A program made the position numbers and the translations under genes. Below are positions 41,865 to 63,829 of a stretch of 64,000 nt of DNA, one piece after another. Numbering within the stretch: position 1 is the stretch's first letter; the number at the start of each line of letters is the position of its first letter. The DNA comes from Halorussus gelatinilyticus (GTDB taxonomy: Archaea > Halobacteriota > Halobacteria > Halobacteriales > Haladaptataceae): contig NZ_CP096658.1 of assembly GCF_023238445.1 (NCBI RefSeq), positions 1,922,001-1,986,000 on the forward strand. Reading direction: 5' to 3'. Below the pieces are notes generated by a model. That model saw only the letters and a list, made by a program, of their open reading frames with translations, searched no databases and had not been told where the DNA came from.

Positions 41865-42301
41865 TTCGGTCGATCGGGGATTCGCGGTTAGAATCTCGGT
41901 TTCTGCTTCGGTCGGGCGAGTTCCGAGGGAGTCGAGTGAGAATGGCCGGTGGAGTCGGATGAGAAGACCGGTAGAGTTACGGAGGAAGTCGAGAAGCGGC
42001 TAGCTTCAGGCTTGAGCGCAGGAGTCTGCCGCACGGCACCACGTCCTCCCCACCCGATTGCGTTGCTCAATCGTCACTCCCTTCGGTCGTTCCTCCCTGC
42101 GCTACTCATCCACCGTCGGACAAACCGCGTCCGACGAGTCGTGCTTCGCTCCGCTCAACACGACCTCGCACGGATGGGCGCGACCTCACACCGCGAGGTC
42201 GCGCCCGCACGGGCCGGGTGGAGAATCTGACTCTGGCGATTCTCCACAGACGGTCTATCGACTCCGACCGATTCAAGCCGATAGGCGCGAACGCAGAGGT
42301 A
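41865..42301. other. 437-bp noncoding stretch
   Basis: No credible gene was found in any frame. The segment 42115-42247 contains three perfect inverted repeats described separately. The part 41900-42110 has a purine-rich then pyrimidine-rich composition (GGAGTCGAGTGAGAATGG... CCCTTCGGTCGTTCCTCCC). A TATA-like stretch near 42267 (GATTCAAGCCGATAG) precedes the HAD gene start at 42302. Confidence 0.5.
42115..42247. ncRNA. chain of three strong hairpins, possible structured RNA
   Basis: GTCGGAC/GTCCGAC with a 7-nt loop (42115-42135), a 12-bp perfect stem GGGCGCGACCTC/GAGGTCGCGCCC with a 7-nt loop (42176-42206), and a 10-bp perfect stem GTGGAGAATC/GATTCTCCAC with a 10-nt loop (42218-42247). Three exact stems in 133 bp with no gene could encode a structured RNA, a terminator for halocyanin, or a mobile repeat. 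The strand is not determined. Confidence 0.4.
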
Positions 42302-42925
42302 GTGGCAGTCTCCTTCGACCTCTTCGGGACGCTCGTGGACGCCGACCTGCCCGACGACCCGGCGAGCGCTATCGCCGCGGAACTGAGCGCGCGCGACGTG
42401 GCAGTCCCCGACGACTGGGCCGCGGCCTACCGCGAGGACCACGTCGAAGCGCCCGAGGGCGCGGTGGTCCCGCTGATGGCCCACGTCGGCGCGGCGCTGG
42501 CGAGTCGGGGCGTCGAGACGCCGGGCAACGCCGCGCGCCGGGCGGTCGTCGCCGCCTTCGACCCCGCGGTCGAGACCCGCGAGGGCGCTGTCGAGGCGGT
42601 CGCGGCCGCCGCGGAACGCGGGCCGGTCGCCGTCCTCTCGAACTGCGCGGTGCCGCAACTCGCCCGGAAGGCCCTGATTCGCTCGGCCCTCGACCGCGAG
42701 ACGTTCGACGCCGTCGTCACCGGCGTCGCCTGCGGGTGGGCGAAACCCGACCCGCGGGCGTTCGAGACCTGCGCAGACCGCCTCGGCGTGCCTGTCGCCG
42801 ACCTCACGCACGTCGGCGACGACCCGGCGACCGACGCCGGAATCGAGGACTGCGGCGGCGAGGCGGTTCTCCTCGGCGACGTGTCGCTCGCCGATTTTCC
42901 GGCGTGGGTCGCAGGACGAGCGTAG
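42302..42925 (+). CDS. HAD-superfamily hydrolase
   Basis: A 207-aa haloacid-dehalogenase-fold phosphatase. Motif I is SFDLFGTLVDA with the nucleophile Asp near residue 6. Motif II lies in VAVLSNCAVPQ, motif III Lys in GWAKPDPRAFE, and motif IV in HVGDDPATDAG. The GTG at 42302 is preferred: it starts two residues before the first strand and lies about 28 bp after a TATA-like TTCAAGCCGATAG. A GTG at 42218 would add 28 residues that read through the last intergenic hairpin. The phosphate substrate is not evident. Confidence 0.82.
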   Translation: MAVSFDLFGTLVDADLPDDPASAIAAELSARDVAVPDDWAAAYREDHVEAPEGAVVPLMAHVGAALASRGVETPGNAARRAVVAAFDPAVETREGAVEAVAAAAERGPVAVLSNCAVPQLARKALIRSALDRETFDAVVTGVACGWAKPDPRAFETCADRLGVPVADLTHVGDDPATDAGIEDCGGEAVLLGDVSLADFPAWVAGRA

Positions 42926-46217: not shown

Positions 46218-46997
46218 TCACACCTCGGGCGTCTCCATGACGCGGGGCACGCCCGCCGCGGTGACGGTCTCGCCGACCACGTACGACGCCGCGGGACTGG
46301 CGAGGAACTGGGCGAGGTCGGCGATCTCCTCGGTGGTGCCGATGCGCCGTTCGACCTCGCGGCGGTCGATGTCGTCGGCGCTGACGCCCATCTGACTCTC
46401 GACGCCCGGCGTGGCGACGAACCCCGGCGCGATGCAGTTGACCCGCACGTCGTCGCTCGCCCACTCGAACGAGAGCGTCGAGGTGAGGTTGATGATACCC
46501 GCCTTCGCCGCGCCGTAGTGGCTCATGTGAGGCGACCCCTTCTGTCCCGCGACGCTGGCCACGTTTATCACCGAGCCGCCGCCGTCCTCGCGCATCCGTT
46601 CCCCGGCGACCTGCGTGCAGTGGAACGTCCCGTTCAGGTTGATGTCCACGATGGTCTCCCAGCCGTTCTCGCTGATGTCCTCGAACGGAGCCATGAAGCT
46701 GGCCCCGGCGTTGTTGACCAGCACGTCGAGCCCGCCGAACTCCTCGACGGTCGCGTCCACGAGCGCCTCCACGGCGTCGCGGTCGGTCACGTCGCACTCG
46801 ACCGCCAAGGCCGACCCCTCGCGGTCGCTCTCCTCGATTCCCTCGGCGACCGGGTCCACGTTCTCCTGTTCGCGCGAGCAGACCACGACGTTCGCGCCGT
46901 CGTCGGCGAACTGCTCGGCGATGGTCTGCCCGATGCCGGAACTCGCGCCCGTCACGATGGCGGTCCGCCCGGCGACGCTGAACTGTTCGAGGCTCAC
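46218..46997 (-). CDS. short-chain dehydrogenase/reductase (SDR)
   Basis: A 259-aa SDR of the FabG-like class. Cofactor-binding TGASSGIG at residues 17-24, NNAG at about 92-95, the catalytic Ser in INVASVAGQ, Tyr/Lys in SHYGAAKAG, and PG motif CIAPGFVATPG. The start is GTG 46997. It follows the ACAD10/11-like gene on the same strand (143 bp) and may share a role with it. Levulinate/4-hydroxy acid pathways in bacteria include an SDR (LvaD) that reduces the 4-keto acyl-CoA. A classic 3-ketoacyl reductase role is equally possible. TATA-like ATATTTATTAAC lies near 47072-47085. Confidence 0.85.
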   Translation of the reverse strand: MSLEQFSVAGRTAIVTGASSGIGQTIAEQFADDGANVVVCSREQENVDPVAEGIEESDREGSALAVECDVTDRDAVEALVDATVEEFGGLDVLVNNAGASFMAPFEDISENGWETIVDINLNGTFHCTQVAGERMREDGGGSVINVASVAGQKGSPHMSHYGAAKAGIINLTSTLSFEWASDDVRVNCIAPGFVATPGVESQMGVSADDIDRREVERRIGTTEEIADLAQFLASPAASYVVGETVTAAGVPRVMETPEV

Positions 46998-47139
46998 GCC
47001 GACCCCTCCGTCGCCGGTCGATAGTTCGATTCGATTTCCATTGTTAACATCGGGATGGAATTACGCTCCTCTGTTAATAAATATGGGTGTGTATCTGTAA
47101 TCGTTGTCAGTAGCTGGGGGTGAGAGAGCGCCCGATGAG

Positions 47140-48357
47140 CTACGAGGAGTCGAACCGCGTCAGGTGTTCGACCTCGCTCGGGTCCGTGTCCTCGAACGCG
47201 TTCCGCGCGATGACTCGCTTGTGAACCTCGTCCGCGCCGTCGATGATGCGGAACTGCCGGACGTTCTCGTAGAAGTCCGCGAGCGGCAGGTCCTTCCCGA
47301 TGCCGTTGCCGCCACATATCTGGACGGCGGTGTCGATGGCGTCCTGCGTGACGTTCGCCGCGAAGGTCTTGCTCATCGCCACCTCGACGCGGGCCTCCTC
47401 GCCCGCGGCTATCTGCCGGGCGGCGTGTCGGACCATCGACCGGACGGCGTGCAGGCGGGTCTCGGCCTCCGCGACTTCGAATCGGAGCGCCTGCTTGTCC
47501 GAGAGGGGACCGTCGAACGCCCGTCGCTCGGCGGCGTAGGCCTTAGCCACGTCGAGCGCACGCTCGGCCATCCCCGAGAAGCGCATGCAGTGGGTGAGTC
47601 GGGCTGGGCCGAGGCGCTGTTGGGCGATGGCGAACCCCGCGTTCTCCTCGCCGAGCAGGTTCTCCTCGGGCACGCGGACGTCGTCGTAGCGAATTTCGGC
47701 GTGACTCGCGCCGGTGAGACCGCCGCCGAGATGGGGGATGTCGCGGACGATTTCCACGCCGGGCGTGTCGGCGGGCACGAGGAAGATGGAACAGCCCTGA
47801 TACGGGTGGGCCTCGTCGTCGGTCCGCGCCATCACCAGTAGCACGTCGGCCTCGCTTCCCTGCGTGGTCCACCACTTGTGACCGTCGATGACCCACTCGT
47901 CGCCGTCCTTCTCCGCCGTGGTCCGAATCATCTTCGGGTCCGAACCCGCGCCCGGATTGGGTTCGGTCATCGAGAATCCCGACTTGGCCTCGCCCGCCGC
48001 GAGCGGGCGGAGCCACCGCTCTCTCTGCTCGTCGGTCCCCACCAGTTCGAGCGTGTGCATGTTACCCTCGTCCGGGGCGTTCGCGCGGATGGCCGCCGGA
48101 CCGAGGAGGCTCCGACCGGCCGCCTCGAAGACGGGGAGCAGTTCCCGGAAGTCCATCCCGAGTCCGCCGTACTCCTCGGGGACTTGGGGCGCGTACAGGT
48201 CGCGCTCGCGGGCCAGTTCCCGGAGTTCTCGCACGGTCTCGTCGGGGACGCGCCCCTCGCCGAGGTGGTCGCGTTCGACCGGGACGACCTCCTCGCGAAC
48301 GAAGCTCTCGACGCGGTCGGCTACCTCCCGGCCCCGCTGGGGGTCGTCGTACTTCAT
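47140..48357 (-). CDS. acyl-CoA dehydrogenase, ACAD10/11-like
   Basis: A 405-aa FAD acyl-CoA dehydrogenase. N-terminal helices to residue about 120, beta domain with FSMTEPNPGAGSDP and GHKWWTTQGSEADV, and C-terminal helices with QICGGNGIGKDLPL and RIIDGADEVHKRVI. The last segment differs from the usual catalytic YEGTSEIQ and instead resembles the DGPDEVH of the ACAD10/ACAD11 and LvaC group. That group, with a partner phosphotransferase, converts 4-hydroxyacyl-CoAs. A gene for that phosphotransferase lies divergently next door at 48519. A TATA-like GCTTTTACATC about 25 bp upstream supports the ATG at 48357 and a leaderless mRNA. Confidence 0.88.
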   Translation of the reverse strand: MKYDDPQRGREVADRVESFVREEVVPVERDHLGEGRVPDETVRELRELARERDLYAPQVPEEYGGLGMDFRELLPVFEAAGRSLLGPAAIRANAPDEGNMHTLELVGTDEQRERWLRPLAAGEAKSGFSMTEPNPGAGSDPKMIRTTAEKDGDEWVIDGHKWWTTQGSEADVLLVMARTDDEAHPYQGCSIFLVPADTPGVEIVRDIPHLGGGLTGASHAEIRYDDVRVPEENLLGEENAGFAIAQQRLGPARLTHCMRFSGMAERALDVAKAYAAERRAFDGPLSDKQALRFEVAEAETRLHAVRSMVRHAARQIAAGEEARVEVAMSKTFAANVTQDAIDTAVQICGGNGIGKDLPLADFYENVRQFRIIDGADEVHKRVIARNAFEDTDPSEVEHLTRFDSS

Positions 48358-48518
48358 ACCTCAACCTCTCCGCAACGATGTAAAAGCATTTCCCCGATTT
48401 TATTTCCCTCGTAAGTTCTATAGGGGAGTTATCCGTACAATCGACGCAGGAGGCGCGGGCGACGCGACGGCTTCGCGCCGGACCGCCGCCGACGGACAGA
48501 ACGCGGAAGGACGAACAC

Positions 48519-49589
48519 ATGACAGACGACGAACGAGACTATTTCGAACGACTGGTCGATCAGAACGCGCTCCGAGAGTACCTCGCGGACCGATTGGGAG
48601 CGGTCGAAGACTACGCCGTCAGACACCACGAGGAGGGCCACTCGAACGAGACGCTGTTCGTGACGTGGGGCGACCGGGAACTCGTCGTCCGGCGGCCACC
48701 TCCCGGCGAGACGGCCGACACCGCCCACGACGTGCTCCGGGAGTACCGCGTGATGGACGCGCTTCAGGACACCGCCGTCCCGCTTCCGACGACCGTGCTG
48801 GCCTGCGAGGACCACGCCGTCCTCGGGAGCGACTTCTACGTGATGGAGCGCGTCGAAGGCGACGTCCTCCGCGAGAGCGAACCCGACCGCTTCGGGACGG
48901 CCGACGCCCGCCGCGGCGTCGGCGAGGAGTTGGTCGATACGCTCGCGGCGATTCACGCCGTGGACTACGAGGCGGTCGGACTCGGCGAGTTCGGCCGCCC
49001 CGCGGGGTACACCGAGCGGCAGGTCGAGCGCTGGACCAAGCAACTCGACTGGGCGTTCGGGCGGACCGCCGACGAGCGAGCGGTGCCGGAACTGCGGGAG
49101 GTCGGCGACTGGCTCGCCGACGAGTGCCCGACCGACCGCGAACGCGCGCTGGTTCACGGCGACTACAAACTCGACAACGTGCTGTTCGCGCCGGGCACGC
49201 CCCCGGAACTGGCCGCGGTGCTCGACTGGGAGATGGCGACGCTCGGCGACCCGCTGGCGGACCTCGGGTGGATGCTGTCGTACTGGCGCGACCCCGGCGA
49301 CCCGGACCCCGCCACGCCCGAACTGACTGCCACGTTCATGGCGGCCGAGGAGTACCCGACTCGGCGGGAATTGGTCGAGCGCTACGAGCGCGCGACCGGC
49401 ATCGAGTACGACCACGACCGGTTCTACCGGGCGCTCGCGGTGTACAAGCTCGCCGCGCTGGGCGAGATGTTCTACCGGCGGTACCTCGAAGGCAACAGCG
49501 ACGACCCGCTGTACCCGAAGATGGAACGCCGAGTGCCGGACCTCGCCGAACGCGCGCTGCGAATCATCGACGGCGACGAACCGCTCTGA
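48519..49589 (+). CDS. APH-type phosphotransferase, ACAD10/11 kinase-domain-like
   Basis: A 356-aa aminoglycoside-phosphotransferase-fold kinase. The glycine/Lys region is HHEEGHSNETLFVTWGDRELVVRRP, the catalytic loop is HGDYKLDNVLF, and the metal motif is VLDWEMATLGDPLADLGWM. This pair of motifs matches the kinase domains of ACAD10/ACAD11 and LvaA, which phosphorylate the 4-hydroxyl of hydroxyacyl-CoA, rather than drug-resistance enzymes. The gene is divergent from the ACAD10/11-like dehydrogenase across 161 bp, so together they would form the split version of the mammalian fusion protein. Confidence 0.87.
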   Translation: MTDDERDYFERLVDQNALREYLADRLGAVEDYAVRHHEEGHSNETLFVTWGDRELVVRRPPPGETADTAHDVLREYRVMDALQDTAVPLPTTVLACEDHAVLGSDFYVMERVEGDVLRESEPDRFGTADARRGVGEELVDTLAAIHAVDYEAVGLGEFGRPAGYTERQVERWTKQLDWAFGRTADERAVPELREVGDWLADECPTDRERALVHGDYKLDNVLFAPGTPPELAAVLDWEMATLGDPLADLGWMLSYWRDPGDPDPATPELTATFMAAEEYPTRRELVERYERATGIEYDHDRFYRALAVYKLAALGEMFYRRYLEGNSDDPLYPKMERRVPDLAERALRIIDGDEPL

Positions 49590-49775: not shown

Positions 49776-51740
49776 ATGACCGTTTCTGACATCCAGAGCG
49801 TGACCGTCCTCGGAGCGGGGAACATGGGCCACGGCATCGCGGAGGTCGCCGCGATGGCCGGGTACGACGTGACGATGCGAGACGTCGAGGCGGACCTCGT
49901 CGAGGACGGCTACGACGACATCGAGTGGAGTCTGGAGAAACTGGCCGAGAAAGACCGACTCGACGAGTCCGTCGAGGAGGTACTGGCACGCATCGACACT
50001 ACGACCGACCTCGAAGCCGCGGTCGCGGAGGCGGACTTCGTAATCGAGGCCGCGCCCGAGCGGATGGACCTCAAGAAGGGCATCTTCGGCGACCTAGACG
50101 AGTTCGCGCCCGACGACGCGATACTGGCGTCGAACACCTCCAGTCTGAGTATCACCGAGATGGCGACCGCGACTTCCCGGCCCGAGCAGGTGGTGGGGAT
50201 GCACTTCTTCAACCCGCCGGTGCGGATGGACCTCGTGGAGGTCATCTACGGCGAGGAGACCAGCGACGACACCGCCGAGACGGCCTACGAGTTCGTGGAG
50301 TCGCTCGGCAAGACGCCCATCTACGTCCGGAAGGACGTGAACGGCTTCGTCGTCAACACGGTCCTCGGGCCGTTCACCGGCGAACCCGCATGGACGGTTT
50401 CGAACGGTGAGGCCGAGATACGCGAGGCCGACGCCGCGATGGTTCACCGCCGAGGCTACCCGATGGGTCCCTTCGAACTCGCGGACCTCACCGGCATCGA
50501 CGTGGGCTATCACGTTCGAGAAGAGGCGGGCCGACCGATTCCGCCGATTACGGAGCAGAAAGTCGAGGACGACGAACTCGGCCGGAAGACAGGGACGGGA
50601 TTCTACGACTACGAGGACGGCGACGGCGCGGACTACGAACCCGGCGACGGCGAGGAGTTCGACACCCTGCGCGTCGAGGCCCGGATGATAAACGAGGCCG
50701 CGCGACTCGTCGGCGACGGCGTGGCCACGCCCGACGAGGTCGATACCGGGGTCAAACTCGGTCTCGGTTTCCCGGAGGGCATCTGCCGGCGGGCTGACAA
50801 AATCGGCCTCGACGCGGTCCTCGACAAACTCCGGACCCTCCACGAGGAGACCGGCGACGACCGGTTCGCGCCCGACGACTACCTCGTGGAACTGGTCGAG
50901 TCGGGGAAGACGGGCGAAGACGCCGGCGCGGGCTTCCACGAGTACGGCGATTCGGGCGGCGACGGACCGGGCGACTACCGCCTGCTGAACTACGACCTGT
51001 CCGACGACGGCCTCCTCGAAGTCGAACTCGACCGGCCCGAACGCATGAACGCGCTCTCGGCGGACCTGCTGGGCGAGATAGACGACCTGCTCTCGTCGGT
51101 GGACGCCGACGAGGTTCGCTGTGTTACCTTCGAGGGCGCGGGCGACCGGGCGTTCAGCGCCGGGGCCGACATCGGCGGATTCGCCGACTTGGAACCGACC
51201 GACGCGATGGACGTGACGCCCGCGTTCGAGACGGTCAACGACTTCGAGCGTCCGGTAATCGCCAAAATCGACGGCTACTGCCTCGGCGCTGGACTGGAAC
51301 TCGCGCTGGCCTGCGACCTCCGTATCGCGACCGAGGACTCCCAGTTCGGGTCGCCCGAAATCGGGCTCGGACTCATCCCCGGCGGCGGCGGCACGCAGCG
51401 TCTGCTCCGAGTCCTCGGCGAGACGCGGGCCAAGGAACTCGTGTTCCGAGGCAATCGCATCGACGCCGACCGCGCCGAGGATTGGGGACTGGTCAACCGC
51501 GCCGTCCCCGAATCGGAGTTCGAGGACACCGTCTCCGAGTTCGTGGCGGACGTGCTGGAGGGGCCGCCGGTCGGACTCAAAGTCGCCAAGAAGGTGATGA
51601 ACGAGGGCGCGGACGCCAGCCTCGACGCCGCCCTCGCGATGGAGAGTCAGGGCTTCGGCCTGCTGATGAGCACCGACGACGTGCGCGAGGGGACCGCGGC
51701 GTTCCGCGACGACCGCGACCCCGAGTTCACCGGGGAGTGA
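49776..51740 (+). CDS. 3-hydroxyacyl-CoA dehydrogenase / enoyl-CoA hydratase fusion
   Basis: A 654-aa bifunctional beta-oxidation enzyme. Residues 1-290 are the NAD-binding dehydrogenase domain (VTVLGAGNMGHGIAEV, then catalytic His in VVGMHFFNPP). Residues about 295-385 are the C-terminal dehydrogenase repeat. From about residue 400 it is an enoyl-CoA hydratase (GAGDRAFSAGADIGGF and GLGLIPGGGGTQRLLRV). This order, dehydrogenase first, is the archaeal form and opposite to FadB. The ATG at 49776 has a good ribosome site (GGAG 6 bp upstream); the in-frame ATG 49749 is the alternative. It is followed by two hotdog-fold genes in one operon. Confidence 0.93.
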   Translation: MTVSDIQSVTVLGAGNMGHGIAEVAAMAGYDVTMRDVEADLVEDGYDDIEWSLEKLAEKDRLDESVEEVLARIDTTTDLEAAVAEADFVIEAAPERMDLKKGIFGDLDEFAPDDAILASNTSSLSITEMATATSRPEQVVGMHFFNPPVRMDLVEVIYGEETSDDTAETAYEFVESLGKTPIYVRKDVNGFVVNTVLGPFTGEPAWTVSNGEAEIREADAAMVHRRGYPMGPFELADLTGIDVGYHVREEAGRPIPPITEQKVEDDELGRKTGTGFYDYEDGDGADYEPGDGEEFDTLRVEARMINEAARLVGDGVATPDEVDTGVKLGLGFPEGICRRADKIGLDAVLDKLRTLHEETGDDRFAPDDYLVELVESGKTGEDAGAGFHEYGDSGGDGPGDYRLLNYDLSDDGLLEVELDRPERMNALSADLLGEIDDLLSSVDADEVRCVTFEGAGDRAFSAGADIGGFADLEPTDAMDVTPAFETVNDFERPVIAKIDGYCLGAGLELALACDLRIATEDSQFGSPEIGLGLIPGGGGTQRLLRVLGETRAKELVFRGNRIDADRAEDWGLVNRAVPESEFEDTVSEFVADVLEGPPVGLKVAKKVMNEGADASLDAALAMESQGFGLLMSTDDVREGTAAFRDDRDPEFTGE

Positions 51741-51741
51741 G

Positions 51742-52221
51742 ATGAGCGAGGAGTTCGCCGCGGGCGAGGACCCGCCCGCGGACGCGACGGCCGAGATGCA
51801 GGCGTTCGTGGACCGCCACGGCTACCTCTCGTGGCTCGGCGTGACCGTCGAGGCGGTCGAGCGCGGCCGACTCGTCATGTCCGTCCCGTACGACGAGAAG
51901 TTGGTCAACCCCGACCCCGACGGCACCGCCGTCGTCCACGGCGGCATCGCCGCGACGCTGGTGGACACCGCCAGCGGGTTCGCCCTGCGGACCACGTTCG
52001 AGGCCCCGGCCGAGGCCGCGCTCACGACCACCGACCTGAACGTCTCGTACCTCCGGCCCGCGACGGGCGACCTCCGGGCCGAGGCCGAGGTGGTACGGGC
52101 CGGCGGGTCGATGGGCGTGACCGAAGTCACCGTCACGAGCGAGCGACCCGACGACGAGGAACCGACCGAAGTCGCGGTCGGACGCGCGAGCTATCGGCTG
52201 TTCCGGGAGGGAGAGACGTGA
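51742..52221 (+). CDS. PaaI-family hotdog thioesterase
   Basis: A 159-aa hotdog-fold protein. The conserved HGGIAATLVDTASGFAL region (about residues 68-84) and TTDLNVSYLRPATGD are typical of PaaI thioesterases, which release CoA from stalled acyl or aryl-CoA intermediates. The ATG lies 1 bp after the preceding stop, and its own stop overlaps the GTG of the MaoC gene, so all three are cotranscribed. The N-terminal 20 residues are acidic and poorly conserved. Confidence 0.85.
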   Translation: MSEEFAAGEDPPADATAEMQAFVDRHGYLSWLGVTVEAVERGRLVMSVPYDEKLVNPDPDGTAVVHGGIAATLVDTASGFALRTTFEAPAEAALTTTDLNVSYLRPATGDLRAEAEVVRAGGSMGVTEVTVTSERPDDEEPTEVAVGRASYRLFREGET

Positions 52222-52655
52222 CGCTGTCGTTCGACGAACTCGACGTGGGCCGCCGGATTACCACCCCGTCCCGGACCGTCACCGAGGCCGACGTGACCAA
52301 CTTCGCGGGCGTGAGCGGCGATTTCAATCCCATCCACACGAGCGCGACCGAGGCGGCCGAGTCGGACTTCGGCGAGCGAGTCGCTCACGGCGCACTCGTG
52401 TTCTCGATGATGACCGGTCTCGTGCGGCGCGCGGGCGACCGGCGCGCCGACGTGGTGGCGTTCTACGGCGTGGACCGCCTCCGGTTCACCGCGCCGGTCG
52501 AGTTCGGCGACACGATTCGGGTCGAGATGGAACTGGTCGAGACGGAACCCAAGGAGCATCCGACCGCGAGCGGCGTCGTCCGGTACGACGCCGAGGTGCT
52601 GAACCAGCGCGACGAGACGGTGCTGTCGTGCGAACTGCTCTCGCTGGTGAAGTAG
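52218..52655 (+). CDS. MaoC-like (R)-hydratase
   Basis: A 145-aa hotdog-fold enoyl-CoA hydratase. The hydratase-2 motif is intact in FAGVSGDFNPIHTSATEA, with catalytic Asp and His, followed by FGERVAHGALVFSMM. It would hydrate trans-2-enoyl-CoA to the (R)-3-hydroxy form, complementing the (S)-specific hydratase domain of the fusion two genes upstream. The GTG at 52218 overlaps the PaaI stop codon (GTGA). This may serve polyhydroxyalkanoate precursor formation or degradation; which one is not evident here. Confidence 0.85.
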   Translation: MTLSFDELDVGRRITTPSRTVTEADVTNFAGVSGDFNPIHTSATEAAESDFGERVAHGALVFSMMTGLVRRAGDRRADVVAFYGVDRLRFTAPVEFGDTIRVEMELVETEPKEHPTASGVVRYDAEVLNQRDETVLSCELLSLVK

Positions 52656-55873: not shown

Positions 55874-56401
55874 CTACTCCGGATGTTCGCCGTTCAGTCC
55901 CTCGAATATCTCGGGGTCGGTGCCGAACTTCAGCACGTTGTGGATGACCGAGTTGCGGATGTTAGCGATGACGTCGCCGTGTTCCTTGTAGCACTCGTGA
56001 ATCCAGCGCGACTCGGCCTCCCGCGTGGGGAACATCATCACCGTCTTCCACTGGTACTCGCCGTCCGAGAGGAAGTAAAAGAGGGTGTGCGGGTCGTCGC
56101 GGATGTACTCCATCGCGTCGCGCCACCCGTCCTCGAAGTTCTCGGCGTTGAACTTGAACTCGAACAGCCCGAAGATGTAGTACTGCTCGTTGGGGATGAT
56201 GGCCTCCCGGAACACGCCCTCGTTGCGCATCTCCCGGATGGACTCGCTGACCGTGACGTGGGACACCTCGATGTCGTACTCCTCAGCGAGGATGGTCGTC
56301 AGTTCCCGCGAGGAGAGTTGCGGGTCCCGCGTCAACTCCCGCAGGATGGCGATGTCCCTGTCCTTGAAACTCCAGTTCGGTGATTCGGTTCCGTCGGTCA
56401 T
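55874..56401 (-). CDS. winged-helix transcriptional regulator
   Basis: A 175-aa protein. The N-terminal winged helix is FKDRDIAILRELTRD followed by LSSRELTTILAEEYDIEVSH and VSESIREMRNEGVFRE (about residues 12-70). The C-terminal half is an alpha/beta domain with YYIFGLFEFKFNAENFE and RDDPHTLFYFLSDGEYQWK, possibly a ligand-sensing or dimer domain, unlike the classic Lrp RAM domain. It is 23 bp downstream of the alpha/beta hydrolase gene and the last of a three-gene operon with it and an acyl-CoA dehydrogenase, so it probably controls that operon. Confidence 0.78.
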   Translation of the reverse strand: MTDGTESPNWSFKDRDIAILRELTRDPQLSSRELTTILAEEYDIEVSHVTVSESIREMRNEGVFREAIIPNEQYYIFGLFEFKFNAENFEDGWRDAMEYIRDDPHTLFYFLSDGEYQWKTVMMFPTREAESRWIHECYKEHGDVIANIRNSVIHNVLKFGTDPEIFEGLNGEHPE

Positions 56402-56424
56402 GGTCTTGGCTTCCCGCGAGCGGT

Positions 56425-57288
56425 TTATGACGCTTCCCCTTCGCTCAGGAACGACTCGAGTCGGTCGCGGTACGCCTCCGTGCGGTCCTCGACCACCCAG
56501 TGATAGGCCCGGTCCAGCGTGGACAACTCCGCGTCCTGCAGGTCGTCTTCGAGTCGTTCGGCGTACGAGACCGGTTGGAGCACGTCGTCGCCGCCCCACA
56601 GCAACAGCGTCTCGGCGGTGATGGCTCCGTAGTCGAGTTCCGTGGTGTGGTTGGTGTTGGTCGCCACCGCGTTCCGCGAGAGCGACAGTTTCCCCGCCTC
56701 GGTCTGCCACGGCGCTTTCATCCCGGCCACGAACTCCTCGTGGCCCTCGTCGTCGTAGAGGCCGTCGGCGAACGCGAAGTCGAGTTTGGCGTCGAGTTCC
56801 TCGTCGGTCGTCTCCTCAGCCGCGGAGGGGAGTCCCAGGTCGTTGACGAACTCGACCGGCCACGAGTCGTAGCAGACCGCGTTCGAGAGGACCAACTGGT
56901 CCACGACGTCCGGCTCGTGACTCGCGTACCGGAGCGCGACCCCGCCGCCGATGTCGTGGGCCACCAGCGCGACGGTCTCGACGCCGAGGCGGTCGAGCAG
57001 GGCGTCGAGCATCGCTTCCTGTGCACGGATGGACCGGTCGAACCCGTCGGCCATCGCGGAGTTGCCGTAGCCGAGCAGGTCGGGCGCGATTACGCGCCGG
57101 TCCTCGGCGATTTCGGGAGCGATATCGCGCCAGAGGAACGACCACGTCGGGATGCCGTGGACGAAGACGACCGGCGGTTCGTCGTCGTTGGATTCACCGT
57201 CGCTATAGTACGCCACCTCCAACTCGTGACCGTCCACGGTCACGGTCGCCGTCCCCTGTCGGTCGCTCCACTCCTCGTGTCCCGGCAT
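56425..57288 (-). CDS. alpha/beta hydrolase, haloalkane/haloacetate dehalogenase-like
   Basis: A 287-aa alpha/beta hydrolase. The oxyanion segment VVFVHGIPTWSFLWRDIAP and the nucleophile elbow VALVAHDIGGGVALRYA with Asp instead of Ser are typical of haloalkane dehalogenases, fluoroacetate dehalogenases and epoxide hydrolases. The acid and His of the triad are in LLLWGGDDVLQP and AYHWVVED. The second halide-binding Trp is consistent with HGxPTW. The start (ATG 57288) shares one base with the stop of the acyl-CoA dehydrogenase (TGATG), so the two are translationally coupled. An acyl-CoA-linked ester or epoxide may be the true substrate. Confidence 0.87.
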   Translation of the reverse strand: MPGHEEWSDRQGTATVTVDGHELEVAYYSDGESNDDEPPVVFVHGIPTWSFLWRDIAPEIAEDRRVIAPDLLGYGNSAMADGFDRSIRAQEAMLDALLDRLGVETVALVAHDIGGGVALRYASHEPDVVDQLVLSNAVCYDSWPVEFVNDLGLPSAAEETTDEELDAKLDFAFADGLYDDEGHEEFVAGMKAPWQTEAGKLSLSRNAVATNTNHTTELDYGAITAETLLLWGGDDVLQPVSYAERLEDDLQDAELSTLDRAYHWVVEDRTEAYRDRLESFLSEGEAS

Positions 57289-58475
57289 CACTGGAGGTTG
57301 TCGGCGATGATGTTCTTCTGAATCTCGCTGGTCCCCTCGTATATCTTCGTGATGCGGGCGTCGCGGTAGTAGCGCTCGACGGGGTGGTCGGTGACGAACC
57401 CGGCCCCGCCGTGGACCTGAATCGCCTCGTCGGCCACGTCCACGGCGTGTTCGCTGGCGAACAGTTTGGCCATGCTCGCGAACTGGGTCGCCATCTGGTC
57501 GTCGCCGCCCTCGACGTACGACGCCGCCCGGTAGGCGAGCGACCGGGCCGCCTCGACGTTGGTCGCCATCTCCGCGAGCTTGTGCTCGATTGCCTGAAAG
57601 TCGCCGATCTTCTGGCCGAACTGCTCGCGCTCGTCGGCGTAGTCGAGCGCCGCGTCGAGCGCGGCCTGCGCGGTTCCGACGGCTTGGGCCGCGACGCTGG
57701 TTCGCCCGCTGGCGAAGAAGTCCATCAACTGGTAGAACCCCTTGTCTACTTCGCCGATGACGTTCTCCTCGGGGACGCGCACGTCGTCGAGGACGACCTC
57801 CGCGAGGTCGGAGGCCCGGATGCCGAGTTTGTTGTCTATCTTCTCGGTCCGGAAGCCCTCCGCGTCGGTCGGGACGAGGAACGCGGTGATGCCGCGGTGG
57901 CCCTCGTCGGGCGAGGTCTTGGTCATCACGACCGCTACGTCGGCGACGGTGCCGTTGGTTATCCACATCTTGTTGCCGTTTATCACGTACTCGTCGCCGT
58001 CTTCCTCCGCGGTTGCACCGCTCCGGTTCGAGGCGCTTTGCGCCTCGCTCTTCTCCGCCCGCGTCTCGATGCCCGCGACGTTCGAGCCGTGGGCGGGTTC
58101 GGAGATGCAGCTACAGCACGCCGACTCGCCCGACGCGATGCGGGTCAGCCACTCGTCTTTCATCCACTCGTCGCCGTACTTCCGAATCATGTTCGAGCCG
58201 AACCCGCGGCTCCCGATGGCGCTCCCGATGCCGGGGTCGGCCCGCCAGAGTTCCTCGGTGACGATGATGGCCGACAACGTGTCCATCCCCGCGCCGCCGT
58301 ACTCCACCGGGATGGACGGGGCCACGAAGTCGAGGTCCGCCGCCTTCTGAACGAGGTCGGCTGGGTACTTCTTCTCCTCGTCGTGCTCTCGGGCGACCGG
58401 TCGAATCTCCTCCTCGCCGAACTCGCGAACGGCCTCGCGTATCGCACGCTGCTCGTCTGACAAGCGAAATGCCAT
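57288..58475 (-). CDS. acyl-CoA dehydrogenase
   Basis: A 395-aa FAD enzyme of the short/medium-chain acyl-CoA dehydrogenase type. N-terminal helical domain MAFRLSDEQRAIREAV; the FAD/substrate region CISEPAHGSNVAGIE and VINGNKMWITNGTVAD; C-terminal AIQVHGGAGFVTDHPVERYY and the catalytic Glu in IYEGTSEIQKNII. An insertion after the FAD region (RAEKSEAQSASNRSGATAEED) is a linker rich in Glu/Ser. It starts 7 bp after a palindrome GGATATATCC that also overlaps the transcription start. It is the first gene of an operon with the hydrolase and the HTH regulator. Confidence 0.92.
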   Translation of the reverse strand: MAFRLSDEQRAIREAVREFGEEEIRPVAREHDEEKKYPADLVQKAADLDFVAPSIPVEYGGAGMDTLSAIIVTEELWRADPGIGSAIGSRGFGSNMIRKYGDEWMKDEWLTRIASGESACCSCISEPAHGSNVAGIETRAEKSEAQSASNRSGATAEEDGDEYVINGNKMWITNGTVADVAVVMTKTSPDEGHRGITAFLVPTDAEGFRTEKIDNKLGIRASDLAEVVLDDVRVPEENVIGEVDKGFYQLMDFFASGRTSVAAQAVGTAQAALDAALDYADEREQFGQKIGDFQAIEHKLAEMATNVEAARSLAYRAASYVEGGDDQMATQFASMAKLFASEHAVDVADEAIQVHGGAGFVTDHPVERYYRDARITKIYEGTSEIQKNIIADNLQ

Positions 58476-58479
58476 ACCG

Positions 58480-58489
58480 GGATATATCC
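58480..58489. promoter_or_regulatory. palindrome GGATATATCC at the acyl-CoA dehydrogenase start
   Basis: A 10-bp perfect palindrome lies between the TATA-like CTTTTTATTGG (58493-58503) and the ATG at 58475. It covers the likely transcription start, so a repressor bound here would block the operon. The HTH protein encoded at the operon end is a candidate. Confidence 0.4.
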
Positions 58490-58598
58490 TTCCAATAAAA
58501 AGTATCTTGGGTGGTGCGGGAACTACTGTTAACGAAAATTGCCTCATTCGCGTACATCCGGGCACAGATTTATGTTCGCGAACGTTCACCGACTCGGT

Positions 58599-59660
58599 AT
58601 GCGAGCCGCAGTCTTGCGTGAATACGGCGAACCCCTCGAAATCGAGACCGTCGAACGCCCCGACCCCGACCCGGACGGGGTAGTCATCGAGACCGAAGCC
58701 TGCGGCATCTGTCGCAGCGACTGGCACGCGTGGCAGGGCGACTGGGACTGGATCGGCGCGAAGCCGCCGAGAGGACAGATTCTCGGCCACGAACCGGCCG
58801 GGACCGTCGTGGCGGTCGGCGAGGACGTGACCCGCCTCAGCGAGGGCGACAGCGTCGCCGTCCCGTTCAACCTCAGCGACGGCACCTGTCCGACGTGCCG
58901 CAACGGACACGCGAACGTCTGCGAGAACGTCGTGCCGCTGGGTCTCGCGGAGGCCGCGCCGGGCGCGTTCGCCGAGGAAGTCCACGTCCCGGTCGCCGAC
59001 CAGAACGCCGTCAGGCTCCCCGACGCCGTCTCGCCGGTCGCGATGGCGGGTCTCGGCTGTCGGTTCGTCACGGCGTTCCACGCGCTCGTTCACCGGGCGG
59101 ACGTGACCGCGGGCGACTGGGTCGCGGTCCACGGCTGTGGCGGCGTCGGCCTCTCGGCGGTCCACGTCGCCGACGCCGTCGGCGCGAACGTCGTGGCGGT
59201 CGATCTGGCCGACGAGAAGCTGTCGAAGGCCGAGGAGTTGGGGGCGGTCGAGACCGTGAACGCGTCCGAGACCGAGAACGTCCCTCGCGCTATCGCCGGT
59301 ATCACCGACGGCGGCGCGCACGTTTCGGTAGACGCGCTCGGCATCGCCGAGACCTGCCGCAACTCCGTGAGTTGTCTCCGTCGTCGGGGCCAGCACGTCC
59401 AAATCGGTCTCACGACGCAGGACGAACGGGGGAGCGTGACCCTCCCGACCGACGCGATGGTGATGAAGGAGATAGATTTCCTCGGGTCGTTCGGAATGCA
59501 ACCCCCGCGCTACGACGAGATATTCCGGATGGTCGAAACGGGGAGCCTCGACCCCAGCGCCGTCGTCTCCGAGACGGTGACGCTCGACGACGTGCCCGAC
59601 CGCCTCGCCGCGATGAGCGACTACGAGACGATGGGCATCCCGGTCGTGGACGAGTTCTGA
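58599..59660 (+). CDS. zinc-dependent alcohol dehydrogenase
   Basis: A 353-aa MDR enzyme. Catalytic zinc ligands: Cys in EACGICRSDWHAW, and GHEPAGTVVAVGEDV. The structural-zinc lobe is CPTCRNGHANVC. The Rossmann domain has AVHGCGGVGLSAVHVADAVGANVVAVD. It oxidises a primary or secondary alcohol with NAD(P). ATG 58599 (MRAAVLREYG) is chosen: TATA-like GATTTATGT is about 28 bp upstream, so the mRNA is leaderless, and the earlier in-frame ATG is outside the conserved region. It is divergent from the acyl-CoA dehydrogenase operon. Confidence 0.92.
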   Translation: MRAAVLREYGEPLEIETVERPDPDPDGVVIETEACGICRSDWHAWQGDWDWIGAKPPRGQILGHEPAGTVVAVGEDVTRLSEGDSVAVPFNLSDGTCPTCRNGHANVCENVVPLGLAEAAPGAFAEEVHVPVADQNAVRLPDAVSPVAMAGLGCRFVTAFHALVHRADVTAGDWVAVHGCGGVGLSAVHVADAVGANVVAVDLADEKLSKAEELGAVETVNASETENVPRAIAGITDGGAHVSVDALGIAETCRNSVSCLRRRGQHVQIGLTTQDERGSVTLPTDAMVMKEIDFLGSFGMQPPRYDEIFRMVETGSLDPSAVVSETVTLDDVPDRLAAMSDYETMGIPVVDEF

Positions 59661-59721
59661 GCATCGGAGACGGTGAGGACAGAAGTACCGACTCCGTCCC
59701 TCGAGCAGGGAGATGCGTCGC

Positions 59722-59901
59722 TCAGATATCGATTCTGCAACACGTCCCCTCGACGAGGTTTTCCTCGTCGATGTGCGCGGACAGGCAGGCGTAGTTACAG
59801 AACTGCCCCGTCGGTTCACGCTCGTCGCCTCGCTGTTCCGCCACGAACAGCGCGTCGTGTTCGGACACGTCGCTCCCGCAGTAGGTGCAGTCGTCGGTCA
59901 C
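59722..59901 (-). CDS. small zinc-ribbon-like protein
   Basis: A 59-aa protein, start GTG at 59901: VTDDCTYCGSDVSEHDALFV at the N terminus gives CxxC; the second half has CNYAC, a His six residues on and a final TCCRIDI. The four Cys plus His can form one zinc site; this is a familiar haloarchaeal small CxxC protein type. A weak TATA-like stretch lies 25-30 bp upstream. It is convergent with the alcohol dehydrogenase and downstream of the FlK-type thioesterase gene. Confidence 0.6.
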   Translation of the reverse strand: MTDDCTYCGSDVSEHDALFVAEQRGDEREPTGQFCNYACLSAHIDEENLVEGTCCRIDI

Positions 59902-59998
59902 GTCCGAACGGAGGTGACGAACGCAGTAAGTCGTTTTCCCGCCACCCGGATAGCGGACGGTTAACTTCTCCCGCGTCTCCGAGAAGGGTTCGTCGGTG

Positions 59999-60439
59999 TT
60001 ACTCCGCGTCGGCGTTCCGCGTCGCGTCGAGACGCCCGCGAACTCGCTCGGCGAACGCCTCGCGGTTCACGACCGCGTGGCGCATCCGGCCCTCGGCCGC
60101 GACGCCCCCGCGGTCCTCCACCGTCGCGCTGGAGGTTATCTGACCGCTCTCGGCGTCCACCTCCTCGACCTCGATAGCGACCGCGACCGCCTCGCCCGCG
60201 GGCGTCGGCGCGAGGTGGTCGCACTCGATTCGAACGCCGACGATGCGGTGGCCCTCGGGGAGTTTCGGAACCACGCCGTCGTAGACGGTCTGCTCCATGA
60301 AGCCGATTATCTCCGGCGTGGCGGCGACTTCGACGCCCTCGGCGACCGTCTGGGGTTCCATCTGCCCGGCCTCCCACGTCGATTCGTGTGCGAGTCCCTC
60401 GCCGACCGCCGAGAGCGGGTCGTCGGTGTCGTCGGCCAC
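59999..60439 (-). CDS. FlK-type hotdog thioesterase
   Basis: A 146-aa thioesterase of the fluoroacetyl-CoA-thioesterase (FlK) family. The catalytic set can be aligned: Thr in AATPEIIGFMEQ, Glu in the same helix (FMEQ), and His in VRIECDHLAPTPAGE. The final RMRHAVVNREAF fits the family's last strand and helix. The broad role is hydrolysis of an activated acyl-CoA, perhaps protecting CoA pools. The GTG start is at 60439, 1 bp after the enoyl-CoA hydratase stop in the same operon. Confidence 0.82.
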   Translation of the reverse strand: MADDTDDPLSAVGEGLAHESTWEAGQMEPQTVAEGVEVAATPEIIGFMEQTVYDGVVPKLPEGHRIVGVRIECDHLAPTPAGEAVAVAIEVEEVDAESGQITSSATVEDRGGVAAEGRMRHAVVNREAFAERVRGRLDATRNADAE

Positions 60440-60440
60440 G

Positions 60441-61235
60441 TCACCGCCCCTCGAATTTGGGTTCTCGGTCCTCGAGGAAGGCCCGCACGCCCTCTTCGTG
60501 ATCGTCGGTCTCGAAGACGATGCCCTGAGCGGTCGCCTCGTCGGTCATCGCGCGCTGGACCGACTTGTCGAGGCCCTCGCCGAGCAGGCGCTTGGCGTGG
60601 CGGAGCGCCACCGTCGGGCCGGTCGCGACGCGGTCGACGAATTGGTCGGCCCGCTCGTCGAATTCCTCGGCCGGGTAGACGCGGTTGACCAGTCCGAGGT
60701 CGAGCGCCCGTTCGGCACCGACGAGTTCGCCCGTGAACACCAGTTCCTTGGCGACGTTCTCGCCGACGATTCGCGGGAGCAAGTAGGAGGTCCCGGCGTC
60801 GATGGAGAGACCGACCTGCCGGAAGCCGAACCCGACCGAGGCGTCGTCGCTGGCGAGTTGCACGTCGCAGGCGATGGCGAGGTTCGCGCCCGCCCCGAAC
60901 GCCGCACCGTCTATCTTCGCGACCGTGGGGAGCGGGAAGGTGGCGAGGCGGGCGACGGTCTCGCTCGTCGTCCGTTCGAGTCGCCGGACCTGCTCGTCGA
61001 GCGACTCGTCGGACTCGAACCGCTCGCGCATCGCGGCGATGTCCCCGCCCGCCGAGAACGCCTCGCCCGCACCCTCGACGGCGACGCACCGGGCGTCGCT
61101 CTCGGCGATGTCGGCCAGCGCGTCGCGCACCTCGGCCGACATCTCGGTCGAGAGCGCGTTGCGCCGGTCCGGTTCGCTCAGGGTGACGGTCGCAACGCCG
61201 TCGGCGATGTCGAGAGCGACCGACTCCCCGGTCAC
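60441..61235 (-). CDS. enoyl-CoA hydratase/isomerase family protein
   Basis: A 264-aa crotonase-fold enzyme. The CoA and oxyanion segments are VEGAGEAFSAGGDIAAMRE and KIDGAAFGAGANLAIACDV, then FGFRQVGLSIDAGTSYLLPR. In classical hydratases two Glu are used; here the second (usually E/P-G-G-GTQR) reads SIDAGTSYLL, so isomerase or another crotonase reaction is possible. GTG 61235 overlaps the ligase stop codon (GTGA). It is the second gene of the ligase-ECH-thioesterase operon. Confidence 0.88.
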   Translation of the reverse strand: MTGESVALDIADGVATVTLSEPDRRNALSTEMSAEVRDALADIAESDARCVAVEGAGEAFSAGGDIAAMRERFESDESLDEQVRRLERTTSETVARLATFPLPTVAKIDGAAFGAGANLAIACDVQLASDDASVGFGFRQVGLSIDAGTSYLLPRIVGENVAKELVFTGELVGAERALDLGLVNRVYPAEEFDERADQFVDRVATGPTVALRHAKRLLGEGLDKSVQRAMTDEATAQGIVFETDDHEEGVRAFLEDREPKFEGR

Positions 61236-62866
61236 TCGGTCCCCTCCGTCGTCTCGCGCTCCCGGAGTTCGAACTTCTGGACCTTGCCGGTGGTCGTCCG
61301 CGGAAGCTCTTCGACGAACTCGACCTCGCGGGGGTGCTTGTACTCGGCGAGCCTGTCCAGACAGAACTGCCGTATCTCGTCGGGGGTCACGTCGGCGTCC
61401 GGAACCGGCACCACGAACGCCTTCACCGTCTCGCCCCGGCGGTCGTCCGGAATCCCGACCACGGCGGCGTCCGCGACCGCCTCGTGTTCGAAGAGCAACT
61501 CCTCGACCTCGCGCGGATACACGTTGTAGCCGGCGGTGTTTATCATGTGCTTCTTGCGGTCCACGACGTAGAAGAAGCCGTCCTCGTCCCAGTAGCCGAG
61601 GTCGCCGGTGTGGAACCACCGCGTCCCGTCGCGCTCGGTGAACGCCGACTCGTTGGCCTCGGGCAGGCCGGCGTACCCCTTCATCACGTTCGGCCCGGCG
61701 ACGACGAGTTCGCCCGTGACGCCGTCGAGGTCGGTCTCCTCCTCGTCTACGGGGCCCTTCTCGACCGGCGGGCGTTCCTCGAAGTCGTCGTCCACGATTT
61801 TCGCCTCGACGCCGGGAAGCGTCTTCCCGATGCTGCCGACCCGGCGACCCTGTTTCGGGCTGTTGAAGTGAGTCACCGGACTGGTCTCGGTCAGCCCGTA
61901 CCCCTCGTATATCTTCACGTCGTACAGGTCCTCGAACTGCCGGAGGACTTCGACGGGGATACCGGACCCGCCTACGCCGGCGAGGCGGAGCGACGAGAGG
62001 TCGAACTCCTCGGCGTTCGGTTGGTTGATGACGTCGTTGTACATCGCCGGGACGCCGTGCATCAGCGTGAGGCCCTCGTCCTCGACCAGCGAGACGGCCT
62101 CTTGGGCGTCCCACTCGGGGAGCGGGTAGTACTCGCCGCCGTTGAACAGCGTCGCGTTCATCACCACCGTCATGCCGTAGATGTGGAACAGCGGGAGGAC
62201 GCCCAGTTGCTTGTCGTTGGTCCGGATGCCCTCGGGCACGAGGTCCGCCGCCGTCTCGGCGTTCGACGCGAGATTCCGGTGGGTCAACTGCACGCCCTTC
62301 GGTTGCCCCGTCGTCCCGCTGGTGTACGGTTGGACTGCGACGTCGTCGTCGGCGCGGTCCACGACCGCGGGATTCTCGGCGCTGTCCGCGACCCCGGAAT
62401 CGTCGGCGCTGTCCGCGAGGGTCGGCTCGTGGTCGTCGCCGAGGAACGCCTCGAAGTCGGTTCCCGCTTCGGCCGCCTCGCCGACGGTGACGACGTGTTC
62501 GAGGTCGGTGTCGTCGCGGACCTCCTCGACGAACGGCACGAGGTCCGAGAGCGTCACGACGGCGCGCGCGCCGCTGTCGGACAGCAGGTGGGCGATCTCT
62601 CGGGATTTGTACTGGGGGTTCATCGGCACGACGACGCCGCCCGCCCGGAGCGTCCCGTGGAACGCGGTTACGAACTGAGGGACGTTCGGCAGGTACACCG
62701 CGACGCGGTCGCCCTCGCCGATGCCTCGGTCGTCCAGTCCCGCGGCGAACTGGCCGGTTCGCGCCCAGAACTCGCCGTAGGTTACGTCCCGTCCTCGGAA
62801 GGAGAGCGCGACCGCGTCCGGTTGCTCCGCCGCGACCGATTGAATGTTCGTGGCAAGGTTTGCCAT
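61232..62866 (-). CDS. acyl-CoA synthetase (AMP-dependent ligase)
   Basis: A 544-aa ANL-superfamily enzyme that activates a carboxylic acid to its CoA thioester through an acyl-AMP. The phosphate-binding loop is YTSGTTGQPKGVQLTHRN, the A5 motif is YEGYGLTETSPVTH, the A7 motif WFHTGDLGYWDEDG, and the A10 lysine in PRTTTGKVQKFELRE. An acidic insert follows YTSGTTGQ by an earlier stretch (DSADDSGVADSAENPAVVD). Broad medium/long-chain specificity is likely. TATA-like GAAATACGAT lies near 62877-62887. It begins the operon with enoyl-CoA hydratase and thioesterase. Confidence 0.92.
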   Translation of the reverse strand: MANLATNIQSVAAEQPDAVALSFRGRDVTYGEFWARTGQFAAGLDDRGIGEGDRVAVYLPNVPQFVTAFHGTLRAGGVVVPMNPQYKSREIAHLLSDSGARAVVTLSDLVPFVEEVRDDTDLEHVVTVGEAAEAGTDFEAFLGDDHEPTLADSADDSGVADSAENPAVVDRADDDVAVQPYTSGTTGQPKGVQLTHRNLASNAETAADLVPEGIRTNDKQLGVLPLFHIYGMTVVMNATLFNGGEYYPLPEWDAQEAVSLVEDEGLTLMHGVPAMYNDVINQPNAEEFDLSSLRLAGVGGSGIPVEVLRQFEDLYDVKIYEGYGLTETSPVTHFNSPKQGRRVGSIGKTLPGVEAKIVDDDFEERPPVEKGPVDEEETDLDGVTGELVVAGPNVMKGYAGLPEANESAFTERDGTRWFHTGDLGYWDEDGFFYVVDRKKHMINTAGYNVYPREVEELLFEHEAVADAAVVGIPDDRRGETVKAFVVPVPDADVTPDEIRQFCLDRLAEYKHPREVEFVEELPRTTTGKVQKFELRERETTEGTE

Positions 62867-62989
62867 GTAGTTGGGTATCGTATTTCAACCTCTAAAGAGT
62901 TACCCTCGCCAGAACCAATTTTTCTACTGAGTGCGGTATTCTCTAACAGTCGTAGTCATATCGTCCGGAACCCTTACGGTGGAAGGGAG

Positions 62990-63829
62990 CTACCCGCCGA
63001 GGTACGCGTCGCGGATGTACTCGTCCCCGCGGAGCGTGTCGGGCGTCCCCTCCCGCTCGAACCGGCCGTTTTCGAGGAGGTAGACCCGGTCGGCGTGGTC
63101 CATCGCGAACGTGACGTTCTGCTCGCACAGCACGACGGTCACGCCGGCGTCTCGTATCTCCTCGATGCCGTCACTGATGTCCTCCAGAATGACGGGCGCG
63201 AGACCGAGCGTCGGCTCGTCCAGCAACAGGAGGTCGGGGTCGCTCATCAGCGCGCGACCGATGGCGAGCATCTGCTGTTCGCCGCCGCTCATCGTCCGGG
63301 CGTTCTGCTCGGCGCGCTCTTCGAGCGTCGGGAACAGGTCGTAGACGAACTCCCGGCGCTCCTCGACGTCGTCGCGGTGGCGGTACGCCCCGAGGTCGAG
63401 GTTGTCGGCCACGCTCATGTAGCCGAACAGGTCGCGCGTCTCCGTGCAGTGAATCAGTCCCTCGGCGACGAGGTCGCTCGCGCTCGTCTCCGCGACCTCT
63501 CGTCCCCGGTACGTGACACTCCCCTCGTAGGGGCGATGCCCGGAGACGGCGTCGGCGAGCGTGGACTTCCCCGCGCCGTTCGGGCCGATGACGGCGACGA
63601 TTTCGCCGCCCTCGACGCGGAAGTCGAGACCGCGAAGCGCAGCCACCTGCCCGTACGAGACGCGCAGGTCCTCGGCGCGGAGGACCGCCTCGTCTCGCCC
63701 CGACGCCGCATCCCGCCCGGATGCCTCGTTTCGTCTCGACGCCGTGTCCCGTCCCGACGCCGCGTCCGAGGCGGACGCGGCGTCGTCGCCGTCCGCGTCA
63801 CCGGTCTCCGCGTCGGAATCCGCGCTCAC
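62990..63829 (-). CDS. livF: LivF-type ABC transporter ATP-binding protein
   Basis: A 279-aa ATPase of the branched-chain amino-acid-type (HAAT) importers. Walker A is GPNGAGKST, the signature is MSGGEQQML, and Walker B is LLLLDEPTLGLAP, all in the LivF arrangement. Residues 1-48 are a low-complexity repeat of (A/S)SGRD(E/T)A type, probably unstructured. The GTG start at 63829 overlaps the stop of the livG gene. HAAT importers take up branched-chain amino acids, urea, or short-chain amides; the membrane and binding subunits lie outside the window. Confidence 0.9.
   Translation of the reverse strand: MSADSDAETGDADGDDAASASDAASGRDTASRRNEASGRDAASGRDEAVLRAEDLRVSYGQVAALRGLDFRVEGGEIVAVIGPNGAGKSTLADAVSGHRPYEGSVTYRGREVAETSASDLVAEGLIHCTETRDLFGYMSVADNLDLGAYRHRDDVEERREFVYDLFPTLEERAEQNARTMSGGEQQMLAIGRALMSDPDLLLLDEPTLGLAPVILEDISDGIEEIRDAGVTVVLCEQNVTFAMDHADRVYLLENGRFEREGTPDTLRGDEYIRDAYLGG

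Follow-up and report, generated by a model that had tools for sequence, protein, structure and literature searches.

Two adjacent, divergently transcribed genes of Halorussus gelatinilyticus, located in the 64,000-nucleotide stretch of contig NZ_CP096658.1 analyzed here (positions 1,922,001 to 1,986,000; the window), probably encode, as two separate proteins, an ACAD10/11-type system for admitting 4-hydroxy acids to β-oxidation. One product is a predicted 4-hydroxyacyl-CoA kinase with an APH fold (48519..49589, + strand; 356 residues; Pfam APH, 172 bits); the other is an acyl-CoA dehydrogenase (ACAD) of the ACAD10/11-LvaC type (47140..48357, − strand; 405 residues; three Acyl-CoA_dh domains), which would work as a 4-phosphoacyl-CoA to 2-enoyl-CoA eliminase. 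Both proteins belong to these families and conserve their diagnostic residues, their co-occurrence is obligate, and their genes are frequently adjacent; the reactions are predicted from sequence, and the probability of this assignment is put at about 0.87. The mammalian counterparts, ACAD11 and ACAD10, have the same kinase and ACAD residues and fall on the same sides of the trees; unlike these fused proteins, the haloarchaeal pair is archaeal, is split between two genes, and includes ACADs that form a deep separate clade (support 100/100).

Diagnostic residues, phylogeny and co-occurrence

What sets this ACAD apart from the other ACADs of the genome? The end of its active site reads IIDGADEVH, replacing the usual YEGTSEIQ. 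In ACAD11, R626, H634 and R637 bind the phosphate and D753 is the base; these four residues are common to ACAD10/11 and LvaC and are not found in conventional ACADs, whereas R631 is common to ACADs (PMC12440821). The alignment places R248, R253, H256, R259 and D373 of the window ACAD at ACAD11 R626, R631, H634, R637 and D753, respectively; all five are invariant in 66/66 haloarchaeal orthologues, and R248, H256 and R259 all lie on helix 241-277 of the AlphaFold model (mean predicted local distance difference test score 86; 91 for the kinase model). The D/R/H/R set is missing from all eight ordinary ACADs examined from the genome, whose catalytic position is occupied by E in seven cases and by G in one. 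The best sequence matches in the PDB are 4hr3 and ACAD11 (1.8e-71 to 5e-66, against 3e-55 for ordinary ACADs), and Foldseek ranks 4hr3, human ACAD11 and mouse ACAD11 highest; 4hr3, like 9o56 and 3dxp among the kinase matches, is an unannotated bacterial relative. In a tree with a distant ACAD outgroup, which took in ACAD11 and bacterial kinase-linked ACADs rather than LvaC of KT2440, the haloarchaeal ACADs form one clade (100/100) within the ACAD10/11-type side (100/100), and ordinary ACADs make up the opposite side (96/90); several rows of the ACAD and kinase trees are long-branched, a point on which the tree program gave a warning.

The kinase tells the same story. It contains both HGDYKLDN and LDWEMATLGDP, and its R74, E75, R167, D215 and N220 correspond to ACAD11 R86, E87, R176, D220 and N225, of which R86, R176, D220 and N225 have been named as kinase residues (PMC12440821); all five positions are invariant in 56/56 haloarchaeal kinases. 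The best PDB matches are 9o56, 3dxp and ACAD11 (8v3v/8v3u, E 5e-50), with other kinases at 3e-13 or worse, and the best Foldseek match of the model is 3dxp, choline and aminoglycoside kinases being only weak matches. In the kinase tree, the haloarchaeal proteins are one clade (99/98) among ACAD-linked kinases, a group (100/97) to which 3dxp, 9o56 and the kinase domain of ACAD11 also belong; outside this group stand five further APH kinases that the window genome encodes. The first-pass annotation of this locus, made from the letters alone, had proposed an archaeal, split ACAD10/11-like kinase and dehydrogenase and listed the genes and motifs on which the proposal stood: the open reading frames (ORFs), Pfam domains, both kinase motifs and the DGADEVH ending were all confirmed, the diagnostic residues, both trees and the PDB ranking bear out the assignment, and the contrary outcome named in the annotation, a kinase clustering with macrolide/aminoglycoside or choline-type kinases, did not come up in the tree, where the kinase groups with ACAD-linked proteins, apart from those five APH kinases of the genome.

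Among 292 Halobacteria genomes, 145 have orthologues of both the kinase and the ACAD, and the remaining 147 have neither (Fisher p about 1e-87, kinship ignored); the pairing is thus not a matter of chance. One genome was counted as pair-bearing on a weaker kinase match (E 2.6e-83); the next weaker group begins at E 4e-57. Within at least 10 genera some species carry the pair and others do not, and in no case does one gene occur without the other. Of the 85 pairs listed with no more than 6 kb between the genes, 71 are divergent, with most gaps at 73-320 bp, and no co-directional pair is among them. Weak kinase homologues from pair-free genomes (E 1e-36 to 1e-57) were weighed as possible kinases of the module and discarded: they form a separate clade in which the CoA-contact residues are not conserved. 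This sister subfamily of haloarchaea without the ACAD pair (L253-L264) keeps the catalytic D and N and has lost neither of them, while the CoA-contact arginines are not kept.

Where did the pair come from? The named close relatives of the window are Halobacteria, such as Haloferax mediterranei, and in a phylum-wide sample no orthologue beyond Halobacteria passes 1e-75. The closest relatives found beyond Halobacteria are in bacteria, next to the same partner genes; transfer from bacteria is therefore likely.

Three observations weigh against the ACAD10/11-type assignment. Overall identity does not discriminate, the window ACAD being 35% identical to ACAD11 and 29-36% identical to ordinary ACADs, so that the assignment is carried by the residues and the tree. 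As a deeply separated, long-branched clade, the haloarchaeal ACADs could differ in the shape of their substrate. Finally, of the 129 genomes for which both genes are listed, 45 have no listed kinase copy within 6 kb of a listed ACAD copy.

Proposed reaction and its genomic setting

A redox-neutral elimination with a hydride relay through flavin adenine dinucleotide (FAD) has been proposed for ACAD10 (PMC11342911), and the haloarchaeal pair could work along the same lines. The kinase would bind a 4-hydroxyacyl-CoA, holding CoA with R74 and R167, and would move the γ-phosphate of ATP onto the 4-hydroxyl via D215; the resulting 4-phosphoacyl-CoA would be bound by the ACAD, with R248, H256 and R259 holding the phosphate. 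D373 would then take the C2 proton as a hydride passes transiently to FAD, an internal electron relay; expulsion of the phosphate and return of the hydride would yield 2-enoyl-CoA, making the ACAD step redox-neutral. The product would enter ordinary β-oxidation through a fusion of 3-hydroxyacyl-CoA dehydrogenase and enoyl-CoA hydratase (HCDH/ECH; 49776..51740, + strand; 654 residues; Pfam 3HCDH_N/3HCDH/ECH_1) encoded downstream of the kinase, the presumed next step after the ACAD. The module thus probably feeds β-oxidation, as had been suggested at first reading, and a general entry point for 4-hydroxyacyl-CoA is the best supported view of its role.

On the other side of the ACAD gene lies a classical short-chain dehydrogenase/reductase (SDR; 46218..46997, − strand; 259 residues; adh_short, 213 bits; motifs TGASSGIG, NNAG and YGAAK). 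The ORFs of SDR, ACAD, kinase and HCDH/ECH are all intact in the ORF and Pfam check of the window, with 49776 rather than 49749 as the probable HCDH/ECH start. The adjacency of these four genes, to which the first-pass annotation drew attention, holds; however, the kinase is transcribed divergently from the ACAD and the four are therefore not one operon. The HCDH/ECH gene is followed by intact genes for a hotdog (PaaI-like) acyl-CoA thioesterase (51742..52221, + strand; Pfam) and a MaoC-like hydratase/dehydratase (52218..52655, + strand; Pfam). Farther away are a winged-helix (Lrp-like) protein, a candidate regulator of the module (55874..56404, − strand), an ordinary ACAD with YEGTSEIQ (57288..58475, − strand), and an AMP-forming acyl-CoA ligase that may provide the CoA activation step (61232..62866, − strand). 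The region 56425-63829 also encodes an alpha/beta hydrolase, a zinc alcohol dehydrogenase, an FlK-type thioesterase, an ECH and a LivF-like ABC ATPase, along with the same acyl-CoA ligase, a sign that the acid-degradation cluster may reach the window end or run past it. In 52 haloarchaeal loci, the genes found within 8 kb of the kinase include the SDR (22 loci), the winged-helix regulator (19), HCDH/ECH (15), a HAD-family protein (15) and the ordinary ACAD (11); the fullest match to the neighborhood, on H. mediterranei pHME132, combines ligase, ACAD, regulator, HCDH/ECH, kinase, ACAD, HAD and SDR.

How could genes that do not share an operon be controlled together? ACAD and kinase share a 161-bp divergent promoter region (48358..48518), which contains TTTTACATCG at the TATA position on the ACAD side, and relatives carry TTTACAATG at the same place. 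A scan of upstream regions for TTTACAATG, with one mismatch allowed, finds it before the ACAD in 16/48 loci (0.3 expected), nearly always 24-35 nt from the start, before the kinase in 8/52, and before the SDR in 5/26 pair-bearing loci as compared to 0/18 pair-free ones; these counts are small and the loci are related. In the window, a near-match, TTAACAATG, lies 50 nt upstream of the SDR start, at 47047 (− strand). The motif precedes none of the HCDH/ECH, HAD, MaoC and regulator genes, and hardly any other neighbor has it. The shared element is a lead for possible co-regulation of ACAD, kinase and SDR.

Substrates and alternative readings

If the pair opens β-oxidation to 4-hydroxyacyl-CoAs, what does it act on? 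The SDR could plausibly interconvert 4-oxoacyl-CoA and 4-hydroxyacyl-CoA: its orthologues are present in 132/145 pair-bearing genomes as compared to 31/147 others. This role is merely plausible because the protein is a general haloarchaeal SDR, occurring also in those 31 genomes without the pair. Were the SDR to act as LvaD, levulinate would be a possible substrate, and the locus could even be a dedicated levulinate module, in which levulinyl-CoA, made by the ligase, would be reduced by the SDR to 4-hydroxyvaleryl-CoA for the kinase and ACAD to act on in the roles of LvaA and LvaC. The layout invites this interpretation. Kinase, ACAD and SDR are close together, as in the Pseudomonas putida lva operon (LvaA, LvaB, LvaC, LvaD, LvaE), and an acyl-CoA ligase is present in the wider neighborhood, within the window; the SDR adjoins the pair here and follows it across genomes, and its promoter motif is confined to pair-bearing ones. 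Pseudomonas citronellolis has a cluster in the order kinase-phosphatase-LvaC-LvaD (PMC6692424).

A module dedicated to levulinate is nevertheless unlikely. Unlike the P. putida genes, those of the window do not form a single co-directional operon, and the window kinase is of the single-component ACAD10/11 type, to which LvaA is just 29% identical (PMC11342911). ACAD10 and ACAD11 take many chain lengths, the SDR is often present without the pair, and neither a levulinate transporter nor an LvaR-type sigma54 regulator was seen. The window genome has no DUF6285 protein (PF19802), the family to which LvaB presumably belongs; none is found in eight Pseudomonas control genomes either, each with a lone ACAD11-like ACAD and no second ACAD of the ACAD11 type. 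In these control genomes (L224:5995-7224 and other loci), the lone ACAD has no detectable kinase alongside and adjoins a LysR regulator. P. citronellolis is without lvaB (PMC6692424). With no levulinate-specific feature found, the "levulinate-type" label of the first-pass annotation finds no support as it stands: gamma-lactones, 4-hydroxyvalerate and oxidized lipids are equally possible, and the pair more likely serves 4-hydroxy acids of short to medium length, or gamma-lactones as a class, than levulinate by itself.

A second possibility, and a distinctly improbable one, is that the kinase acts on some other hydroxylated molecule, in the manner of 25-hydroxysteroid kinase, the ACAD then handling either the phosphorylated compound or some unrelated acyl-CoA. 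The Sterolibacterium 25-hydroxysteroid kinase (9fsg) is the second Foldseek match of the window kinase and follows the same phosphorylate-then-eliminate logic, being likewise of APH fold and priming an alcohol for elimination. However, it acts on a free sterol rather than an acyl-CoA, is about 22% identical to the window kinase, and is a far weaker match than 3dxp and ACAD11 (phmmer 3e-13 vs 1e-49 to 1e-61); the positions that contact CoA in ACAD11 never vary among the haloarchaeal kinases of the pair, but do so in the ACAD-free sister group. That an ordinary β-oxidation ACAD is by chance the neighbor of an APH kinase of antibiotic or choline type, as the family names alone (APH, Acyl-CoA_dh) would allow, is scarcely credible given the replacement of the catalytic Glu by Asp, the three phosphate-binding residues, the exact co-occurrence in 145 genomes and the positions of both proteins in their trees.

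The ACAD10/11-type reading also finds a parallel in the Thermus thermophilus HB8 pTT27 cluster (TTH_RS10060-RS10080; L267:5188-9089): as in the window, SDR, ACAD and kinase are grouped with MaoC, thioesterase, ligase and ordinary ACAD genes nearby, and the ACAD has the same diagnostic residues as the window protein. The Thermus cluster differs in having a small DUF6285 protein beside a very divergent kinase and a histidine phosphatase.

A HAD companion and the reach of the pathway

The HAD domain of ACAD10 has an incomplete DxD motif, is almost devoid of phosphatase activity and holds the kinase in check (PMC11342911). In haloarchaea, HAD is a separate gene, found in relatives and not in the window genome. 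The HAD protein encoded beside the pair in H. mediterranei has orthologues in 100/292 genomes, 99 of which are pair-bearing; it is thus present in 99/145 pair-bearing genomes as opposed to 1/147 pair-free ones, and the lone exception is a 125-residue fragmentary match. One such gene lies at L069:9228-9950 (− strand). Motif I reads [FW]DxGGV (DIGG) in 18 aligned sequences (duplicates of two loci included), which means that DxD lacks its second Asp. The window genome has no orthologue and its genus is without this HAD; a HAD encoded in the window at 42218-42925 was considered and rejected as a different protein. The haloarchaeal HAD scores 101 bits with TIGR02253, its best model, but just 45 bits with TIGR02247, the model for the epoxide-hydrolase-N-terminal type; no claim is therefore made that it shares an origin with the HAD of ACAD10, and the parallel is one of architecture and motif. 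Tentatively, at somewhat less than even odds, haloarchaea may run the ACAD10 machine as three proteins: a kinase, a phosphoacyl-CoA eliminase, and a stand-alone HAD that would brake the kinase rather than act as a phosphatase, while HAD-free lineages, the window's genus among them, would operate in the manner of ACAD11. Phosphatases of another family occur elsewhere: a histidine phosphatase gene lies between the LvaA and LvaC homologues of P. citronellolis (PMC6692424), and clusters of Thermus and Deinococcus carry such a gene close to the kinase.

A literature search in which subscription papers were mostly outside scope found no report of an archaeal version of this pathway. The phosphorylation route for 4-hydroxy acids, described in mammals and Pseudomonas (2017-2025), would thus be extended to the third domain of life, through a pair that is present in about half of the sampled haloarchaea and annotated merely as "phosphotransferase" and "acyl-CoA dehydrogenase". 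The haloarchaeal HAD would offer an independent, unfused system for asking what the ACAD10 HAD domain does. H. mediterranei has the divergent pair, which makes the proposal directly testable there; polyhydroxyalkanoate work in this species may also be affected, since the pair would drain 4-hydroxyacyl-CoA.

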